A stretch of DNA of 64,000 bases from Neelides folsomi. Its lineage: Eukaryota > Arthropoda > Collembola > Neelipleona > Neelidae. The stretch lies in contig JAQGBZ010000200.1 in NCBI GenBank assembly GCA_034687125.1, positions 51,559 through 115,558 on the forward strand. Direction: 5' to 3'. Position 1 is the stretch's first letter. The number at the start of each line of letters is the position of its first letter. Shown here piece after piece: positions 43,395 to 45,449 of this stretch. The translations under genes were made by a program, and so were the position numbers. The notes under the pieces are model-generated. The model saw nothing but the letters and a program-made list of their open reading frames with translations, was not told the DNA's origin and made no database searches.

Positions 43395-45449
43395 ATGAAG
43401 GACCATCATCATCATCACCATCACCATAAATCAAAAATCAAAAGAGAAATCTATGATGAATTCGAATCATCGGAAAATTTGTTTACACTTGGAGGAATCC
43501 TCAGTGAGATTCATCCACATAACGTGACCACAAAATTCCTGGAAATTCTCTCAGAATTGCCTCAAGTAATTTTGCAAGGAGTGAAGAATTGGTTGTGGGC
43601 GCCGACACCGGAAAATAAAGAGGCAAGGGTTCCAAAAAGGAAATTTGTCAATTTCACTCCAATGTCCCATTCGACCCATGACCATGACATGTGCAAACGA
43701 GTTCGGATCAACGTTTCAGGAAAAATCTATGAAACGCAATGGAGGAGCATAAATCGCTATCCGGAGACGCTTTTAGGAAATCCTAATATTAGGAGTCGTT
43801 ATTGGAACCCAAAGAAGTCGGAATTTTACTTTGAAAGACATCGACAATGTTTTGACCAAATACTCGGCTTCTACCAAACAGGCGGTCACATTTATCGTCC
43901 TCATACAGTAAATTATGAGAATTTCATGGAGGAACTTTATTTCTTTCTCATGCCCAGAGAAGCAATTTCCAAGTTCCAAGAGGCTGAAGGAATATTTCAA
44001 CGACCGCGGGATCAAATGCCCAAATCAGTCTTCAAAAGGAAAATCTGGCTTTTATTCGAATTCCCAGATAGTTCAAAACAAGCCAAAATCCTAGCATTTC
44101 TCTCAATTAGCGTTGTTTGGTATAATTTGACTTTGAAACATGTTTGATCAGTTTTTAATTTTTTGCATAAAGCCTTTGATATTGATATGTTTTTAACTGA
44201 TTGCCTATTATTTATTTAATTGCCTATATTTATTTGATTGATTACAGCATGTCCATATTCATCTTTTGTGCAGAAACACTTGAAGACTTTCGCCCCAACA
44301 GGAATCCCACACAAGAGGAAGTTTCAATGCGAAATCCATTTTTCTTCGTTGAAACAATTTGCATTGTTTGGTTTGTGATTGAACTCATCGCTAGAATTTT
44401 ATCATGCCCATCATTAGTCAAATTTTTCACCAATTATACCAACGTGATTGAAGCCCTTGTCATTCTTGTTCCCTATCTCATCACCATTATCAGCCACCAG
44501 TCAGCGGAAGAAGGAGAATCGAAGGAAGGGGGCCGACAAGGGAATTTGCCATTCTTGCGGGTTATTCGCCTTGTTCGAGTATTTAGGATCTTTAAGCTTT
44601 CGAGACACTCGGTGGGTTTGAGAATATTGGCCAAAACTCTCATTGCTTCCTTCCAAGAACTTGTTCTCATTTGCTTCTTCCTCACTATTGGAATTATCCT
44701 CTTCTCTTCAGCAATGTATTTCTCAGAAAATGCTGGACATGAATCTGACTTCAAATCAATTCCTGATGCTTTCTTTTGGGCTCTTACAACAATGACAATT
44801 ATTGGTTTAATTCATTTTCATTTTATATATTAAATTAGCTTTTTCATCTGTATACATAAATTAACCTAATGTATCATATTTATGAAGGATATGGAAATGT
44901 CGTTCCTAAAACTTGGCTCGGGAAGTTAGTTGGATCAATTTGTGCTCTTGCAGGAGCGTTGACAATTTCCCTTCCTGTTCCAGTCATTGTGGCCAATTTT
45001 AACTTCTTCTACCATCAAGAAATCGAGAGGGAAGGAGTGGTGAGAATAGAAACTTACGTTCAAGGATGTCCTTATTTGCCGGGTTCGAGAGAGGAGCAAA
45101 AACATTATATGAGGTTATAAAACTTGATAGCTCTTCATAATTTAATTTATGCAAACTTTTTTATATTAAATTCCAAAAGAAAATTAATGCTTTGGCTTAA
45201 ACCGGTTAAAAGCTTTATTTCAATTGCTTGATTATAATGAAAATATAATTATTGTAATCTTTTAACACAATTTTGTGATTTAGGAAAAAAATTGTTAAAG
45301 TGAAGAAGAAGTTCACCTTTCTCGATATTTTCAAGAAGGTCTCAGCTAAACATACGAGAACACGATCAAAACAAACACAAATGGCTGAGAAAAGAGGCAA
45401 ATTTGATGAAAGAAAATTTTGGGAACACTACAACTATGATGGATACTGA
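43395..45449 (+). CDS. Shaker-class (Kv1-like) voltage-gated potassium channel subunit with an atypical pore
   Basis: Plasma-membrane tetrameric K+ channel subunit, 557 aa. Exons are 43395-44119, 44248-44804, 44888-45113 and 45284-45449; all phases close. The N-terminus carries eight histidines after MKD. The T1 tetramerisation domain (about 100-195) starts RVRINVSGKIYETQ and lacks the zinc-site pattern of Kv2-4, as in Kv1. S1 to S3 include FCAETLEDFRP and ETICIVWFVIELIARIL. S4 is LRVIRLVRVFRIFKLSRHS with all gating arginines. The pore reads DAFFWALTTMTIIGYGNVVP, where Shaker has DAFWW..TMTTVGYGDMTP. S6 keeps the PVPVIVANFNFFYHQE gate. CPYLPG in the C-terminus is a Kv1 signature. There is no C-terminal PDZ-binding ETDV; it ends HYNYDGY. 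It is probably a diverged Shaker paralogue; conduction is uncertain because of the pore changes. Confidence 0.93.

Follow-up and report, generated by a model that had tools for sequence, protein, structure and literature searches.

A predicted Shaker-class (Kv1) alpha subunit of the springtail Neelides folsomi with a rewired selectivity filter

The mutation W434F is routinely used to silence Shaker, and one of the main timers of its C-type inactivation is the W434-D447 bond. A gene of the springtail Neelides folsomi, in which both partners of this clamp are exchanged by nature (F434 and N447; Shaker numbering is used throughout), raises the question of what such a pore would do in a Kv1 channel. 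The gene lies in a stretch of 64,000 nucleotides, here called the window (contig C200:51559-115558), of a genome of 75.1 Mb in 840 contigs. A first-pass annotation made from the letters of the window had proposed a Kv1-like channel that may act as a silent or modulatory subunit, as a channel of changed selectivity or as one with compensating changes, an interpretation that the present analysis partly supports. As judged from its sequence, the gene is an intact Shaker-class (Kv1) alpha subunit that belongs to a springtail-specific paralogue group and has a rewired selectivity filter. The window gene (43395-45449, plus strand) comprises four exons with 557 stop-free codons, and all its introns are GT-AG:

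43395..44119, plus strand: exon 1, with the start codon, an N-terminal extension containing a His8 run, the T1/BTB domain and the start of S1; open frame and GT donor
44248..44804, plus strand: exon 2, with the remainder of S1, the segments through S5, the pore helix and the filter as far as base 1 of codon G444; bounded by an AG acceptor and a GT donor and ending in phase 1
44805..44887, plus strand: intron within the G444 codon, phase 1, GT..AG, 83 bases
44888..45113, plus strand: exon 3, with the remaining filter (YGNVVP), S6 with PVP and the start of the C-terminus
45284..45449, plus strand: exon 4, with the C-terminal tail and the stop codon TGA; terminal residues HYNYDGY

Exon 2 ends at 44804 with ...ACAATTATTG, and exon 3 starts at 44888 with GATATGGAAAT. 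When used as a DNA query against the genome, exon 2 gives one match, which is the window gene itself (100%). The N-terminus of the protein (43395-43430) reads MKDHHHHHHHHKSKIK, a natural run of eight histidines, and the C-terminus, HYNYDGY, is without an ETDV-type end. Just downstream of the gene, at 46160-46240, is an 81-base element with perfect inverted arms of 22 bases, of which at least 39 further places were found in the genome at 91-97% (40 scored of 453 candidates), each in both orientations; by sequence this is a repeat of MITE-like appearance. Further matches along the window are:

10763..11137, minus strand: peptidase M24 match, neighbouring frame
13437..14129: PEBP match, neighbouring frame
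34221..35102: DOCK C2 domain, upstream of the window gene, neighbouring frame
50774..51313: serpin, downstream of the window gene, frame match

EAG/ERG (KCNH) channels are characterized by PAS and cyclic-nucleotide-binding-like domains and have no T1. At an E-value threshold of 0.001, the window protein matches only BTB_2 (PF02214, E 2.9e-20, residues 103-193), Ion_trans (PF00520, E 7.2e-41, in exon 2) and Ion_trans_2 in Pfam; neither PAS nor CNBD is found at this threshold, which places the protein outside the KCNH family, whereas a T1/BTB_2 domain ahead of a six-segment ion-channel core is the arrangement of a Kv1 alpha subunit. Against the PDB (phmmer) the protein scores 434 bits with Shaker and 424 with Kv1.2, compared with 236, 234 and 209 for Kv3.1, Kv2.1 and Kv4.2, and the predicted protein is closer to Kv1 than to Kv2-4. 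The Kv1-like identity given by the first-pass annotation thus stands, on T1, the six-segment core and Shaker as best PDB match. The highest-scoring entry is the Shaker W434F mutant 7sj1 (DAFFWA; 433.8 bits, vs 431.6 for 7sip, DAFWWA), which has F434 in common with the window gene but differs from it at seven further positions (437, 438, 442, 443, 447, 448 and 449). Drosophila Shaker is 48% identical to the window protein over 422 aligned positions and shares T1, six segments, S4 charges, the PVP gate, W435, T439, Y445 and GYG, whereas the window gene differs from it by eight pore changes (431-450), by D316E and by the missing ETDV-type end.

The joined exons 2 and 3 give residues 431-450 as DAFFWALTTMTIIGYGNVVP, from the codons GAT GCT TTC TTT TGG GCT CTT ACA ACA ATG ACA ATT ATT GGA TAT GGA AAT GTC GTT CCT. 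The eight pore changes with respect to Shaker are W434F, V437L, V438T, T442I, V443I, D447N, M448V and T449V. Five of these (W434F, T442I, D447N, M448V and T449V) had been named before and are correct when the joined codons are aligned to Shaker; V437L, V438T and V443I had been overlooked, and V438T, at the aligned position of KcsA E71 and hERG S620, is the weightiest of them for interpretation. W435, T439, T441, Y445 and GYG are unchanged in the alignment to Drosophila Shaker. The residues that matter most below, together with the sensor and gate motifs, are located as follows:

44558..44605, plus strand: S4 gating charges R362, R365, R368, R371, K374 and R377, all retained in the alignment to Drosophila Shaker
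44774..44776, plus strand: F434 (Shaker W434), codon TTT; W in 185/185 listed homologues
44786..44788, plus strand: T438 (Shaker V438), codon ACA; V or I in 185/185 listed homologues, Thr in Kv10.1
44798..44803, plus strand: I442 (44798-44800) and I443 (Shaker T442 and V443), both encoded by ATT, at the K+ site deepest in the filter
44896..44904, plus strand: N447, V448 and V449 (Shaker D447, M448 and T449), with N447 at 44896-44898 and V449 at 44902-44904
44965..44982, plus strand: S6 I470 and the P473-V474-P475 gate motif, retained in the alignment to Drosophila Shaker

The listed homologues are the best 120 of 3126 matches in a full-length search (7976 candidates scored after a word prefilter) together with 65 of 65 from a pore-region search; these 185 are different sequences but not independent, as they hold 39 distinct pore 20-mers, and the springtails named among them are Folsomia and Allacma only. 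F434, T438, I442, I443 and N447 each occur in 0/185, whereas L437 is found 4 times, V448 3 times and V449 9 times. T442 is present in 184 of the 185 (one L), as is D447 (one E). The sole departure at the T442 position among them is a Kv1-like protein of Lampetra planeri (P0298), which reads TMTLVGYGDMWP, with Leu there. The search for orthologues with the same pore, suggested earlier as a check, returned none with F434, I442 or N447 among these 185, a word-prefiltered set that an orthologue could escape. In place of the TVGYGD filter and the W434-D447 clamp, which are near-invariant in Kv1, the window gene reads IIGYGN with F434, and its predicted filter is a departure from the family's most constant rule.

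Sequencing error is an unlikely source of these letters: at least four base changes would be needed, and a single base error is ruled out, as TGG to TTT takes two changes and T442I and D447N at least one each. An alternative pore exon was likewise considered and rejected, since exon 2 (557 bases) holds the pore helix and the first filter residues, and the 83-base intron behind it leaves no space for one there. As a separate observation, the N447 codon is AAT (44896-44898); were its first base edited from A to I, the codon would be read as Asp and D447 restored.

Besides the window gene, the genome yielded four Shaker-type genes, the canonical C2 and the divergent C8, C727 and C78, all of which keep W434, T442, V443 and D447. 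The second, canonical Shaker gene that the first-pass annotation asked after is therefore present: C2 is 97% identical to the Shaker proteins of Allacma and Folsomia and 86% to that of Drosophila (~410 positions), and it ends in ETDV. The best PDB match of the divergent paralogues is also Shaker (436, 448 and 479 bits for C8, C727 and C78, compared with 260, 235 and 255 bits for the best non-Kv1 chains). C8, C727 and C78 all have V449, as has an Allacma protein (P0085) with W434 and D447; C8 also has I438. V449 was thus correctly read, but being common to three divergent paralogues it is not special to the window gene: on present sequences V449 belongs to the springtail group, with F434, T438, I442, I443 and N447 confined to the window gene. 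The sequences seem to form a group of divergent V449 Shaker paralogues in springtails. A stretch like PxYRxEWxxYxxW precedes T1 in C8 (L055), in L058 and L059 (C727/C78) and in Allacma P0085; the window gene is without the YRxEW part of it.

The window gene is 42-48% identical to the four paralogues. Its closest relative appears to be C8 (42% identical). C8 differs from it in keeping W434, T442, V443 and D447, but its G444 codon is split by an intron placed and phased as in the window gene. The tree gives C8 as its sister with 93/93 support, with a long-branch warning for both; it was built without a Kv2-4 outgroup and leaves 12 of 21 inner branches open, and the join is supported by the shared G444 intron. 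The end branches are 3.18 for the window gene, 2.36 for C8, 1.69 for C727, 1.45 for C78 and 0.07 for C2. Identity to Shaker in T1 is 48/99 in the window gene and 47-50/99 in the other divergent paralogues.

Position 449 sets slow inactivation and TEA block. The canonical gene C2 has two adjoining pore exons (L056 3377-3720; C2:453376-453719), ending GYGDMT and GYGDMR, which are apparently mutually exclusive and would, as spliced, put T449 or R449 into the channel. Both pores are fused in several insect Shaker models among the listed homologues (such as P0005-P0019), so the pore-exon pair is wider than springtails. The single COX1 match of the genome (C742; open in the invertebrate mitochondrial code, TGA = Trp) is closest to a metagenome-type protein (P0121) at 93%, followed almost entirely by Collembola COX1 at 79-82%, and so places the host among the springtails; from the 93% match (L063/P0121), data of a near relative seem to be present in public reads.

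In agreement with the earlier description of an intact S4 and S6 gate, the charges R362-R377, I470 and PVP are all retained. E283, F290 and E293 are retained as well, and D316E and K380V are changes in the sensor module. The extent of change was compared at 146 columns with at least 95% conservation among 160 Kv1 proteins, i.e. the 185 homologues less 16 of <420 residues, 6 of >760 (P0001 among them), the doubled channels P0002 and P0003, and, unnecessarily, P0289. At these columns the window gene departs 25 times, C8 21, C727 28, C78 20 and C2 0 times. The departures of the window gene are 0/16 in S4, 0/6 in S2, 2/6 in S3 and 1/23 in S6, with 5/18 in the S4-S5 linker and S5, 8/35 in T1 and 5/17 in the pore helix and filter. 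The excess in the pore (5/17 vs 20/129) is not significant (Fisher p = 0.17), which argues against a strong claim of pore-only change.

The reading that we favour, and to which we give about an even chance, is of a Kv1 subunit that would be a poor conductor by itself and would modify slow inactivation when mixed with other subunits. Such a subunit would fold and reach the membrane and would assemble through T1 with the conventional Kv1 paralogues of the genome; its homotetramer would carry little K+, as V449 fails to rescue N447 in Shaker and Ile takes away the hydroxyls of the inner site; and in mixed tetramers, in the role of a regulatory subunit, it would alter slow (C-type) inactivation and thereby tune Kv1 currents. 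In Shaker, W434F and D447N are each reported to leave gating currents only, Y434 to speed slow inactivation, and one W434F subunit in a four-subunit concatemer to accelerate it (PMC3852034). In the legend to Figure 2 of that paper (Pless 2013), D447N stays non-conducting on T449V, and rescue of W434F by T449V is implied. As V449 thus rescues F434 but not N447 in Shaker, the homomer is probably silent or inactivates strongly. The silent or modulatory subunit proposed earlier can be kept as one predicted option, although for the same reason it is N447 and I442, not F434, that argue for silence. KCNQ1 T312I and D317N are tabulated as long-QT mutations in a review (PMC7212895), where the table's G314, Y315, G316 and D317 fix their alignment with T442I and D447N; a search of the open literature for T312I as a dominant negative gave only this review. 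At the T442 position, an Ala mutant of Kv1.3 is reported not to express, and Shaker T442A to slow C-type inactivation (PMC9271579).

The closest comparison for a regulatory role is with the cnidarian NvShakR subunits of Nematostella, where 12 Shaker genes gave no homomeric channels; when these were co-expressed with NvShak3, five conferred inactivation and seven altered its activation or deactivation (PMC3519636). As in the springtail, divergent Shaker genes have expanded there within one lineage alongside conventional members (PMC3519636); the silence of the springtail subunit is a prediction. The terms 'selectivity filter' and 'W434F' are absent from the text of that paper.

Several observations weigh against the favoured reading. 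T438 with N447 is the arrangement of Kv10.1, and hERG Y616F is reported to conduct, so the window homomer may conduct. Shaker T442A is described as conducting and K+ selective (PMC9271579, PMC11251424), the contact F434-M448 is said to stabilise the inactivated W434F filter whereas the window gene has V448 (PMC9271579), and Kv1.2 and Kv2.1 with Ala at the W434 position still conducted (PMC8001480), so that the weight of F434 depends on background. As T1 matches Shaker at no more than 48/99 residues, the canonical subunit would not necessarily co-assemble, and the non-significant excess of pore changes counts here as well. A test of Ile at the T442 position in a Kv1 was not found in the literature searched. 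By residue count, we take T374 of KCNA2 to be the T442 position. KCNA2 T374A is reported with mixed gain and loss of function (PMC8469797).

The same pore can be read as that of a Kv1 that does conduct, with its outer filter built much like those of EAG/ERG channels and its homomer carrying K+ current with EAG- or ERG-like slow inactivation, and we regard this as possible but rather doubtful. Kv10.1 reads LYFTMTSLTSVGFGNIAP, i.e. Y434, T438 and N447, and hERG reads LYFTFSSLTSVGFGNVSP, with the same letters in the genome's own ERG exon (C40); by sequence, the window gene has the non-Trp aromatic 434, the Thr (Kv10.1) or Ser (ERG) 438 and the Asn 447 of these channels, and ERG also shares V448. 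Since V438T falls on the KcsA E71/hERG S620 position, F434 and N447 gain a known EAG/ERG context; by analogy drawn from the alignment and not from a structure, the match of F434, T438 and N447 to known filter support makes them a coherent set rather than three random changes. These three residues, each absent from the 185 listed homologues, occur together in the window gene. The pore changes accordingly look like a coordinated rewiring. On this account the W434-D447 clamp would have been swapped as a set for F434 (an aromatic without indole), T438 (a hydroxyl behind the filter) and Asn447, which is just as doubtful; a convergent exchange for this support, with K+ conduction through an Ile-lined inner site, is slightly less probable still. 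In hERG simulations the S620-N629 contact controls filter collapse, and hERG S620T is without inactivation, as is hEAG1, which has Thr there, of the C-type (PMC3404103). hERG Y616F, which is F434-like on an N447-like background, is reported to conduct with half-inactivation estimated at ~-127 mV; it is also strongly inward-rectifying, and conduction at positive voltage could therefore be small. The implied rescue of W434F by V449 in Shaker favours conduction, whereas D447N remains non-conducting even with V449 (PMC3852034). The window gene furthermore differs from EAG/ERG channels in its Kv1-type T1, in Y445, where Kv10.1 and hERG have F445, and in I442, where they have Ser; with no EAG/ERG precedent, I442 is, as far as the compared sequences go, the real unprecedented element of the filter. 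Extending over three positions, or four in hERG when V448 is counted, the resemblance could be due to chance.

Less probable again is a channel of changed selectivity, in which Na+ or mixed cations would pass once the T442 hydroxyls and the W434-D447 clamp are gone, making the subunit depolarising instead of silencing. MthK T59A and NaK2K T63A are reported as non-selective (PMC11251424), Shaker T442S/G as having raised Rb+ and NH4+ conductance (PMC2766643), a dilated filter as able to conduct (PMC11649237) and W434F as passing Na+ without internal K+ (PMC8001480). Shaker T442A and Kv1.5 T480A nevertheless remain K+ selective (PMC11251424), GYG and T441 are retained in the window gene, and Ile, unlike Ala or Gly, would not be expected to make the inner site wider. 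Least probable, and indeed very improbable, is a gene under relaxed constraint or in early decay, with little or no expression and a pore that drifted after loss of function. Seven nearly invariant sites (>=98.5%) are changed in the window gene, three in the filter region, its end branch is longer than those of the four other springtail genes, it is without an orthologue among the listed homologues, and D316E and K380V lie in the sensor module; C727, however, is changed at 13 such sites and C8 and C78 at 5 each, and the 25/146 departures at conserved sites compare with 21, 28 and 20 in C8, C727 and C78. Although only 42-48% identity to the paralogues remains, all 557 codons are free of stops, whereas in a neutral simulation stop-free copies numbered 12/500 at 0.05 changes per site and 0/500 at 0.1 (~7 stops). 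pN is 0.39 and pS 0.80 with respect to C8, where saturated synonymous sites make dN/dS unusable. Of the marks of a pseudogene, which the first-pass annotation had named as a way to be wrong, none is present: the frame has neither stops nor frameshifts, and splice sites and core motifs are intact; with voltage sensor and S6 gate conserved, a decayed gene is unlikely.

The combination had been thought undescribed in Shaker relatives, and none was found in the open literature, most subscription journals being outside it; within the same scope there was no report of a natural W434F-type Shaker or of a silent Shaker subunit like the window gene, and no paper on springtail Shaker or on GYGN potassium-channel selectivity filters. 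If the subunit is silent, as the favoured reading predicts, no natural Shaker subunit with a filter of disabled type would precede it in the literature searched, and it would likely be an arthropod counterpart of the regulatory Shaker subunits of sea anemones. If it conducts with an EAG-type filter, it would amount to an experiment of nature, demonstrating that the clamp can be replaced and what is enough to compensate for its loss. Either way, a natural Kv1 with F434, N447 and T438, the last at the site that touches Asn in EAG/ERG channels, allows the long-standing question to be tested in one gene whether the clamp is essential or may be rebuilt another way.
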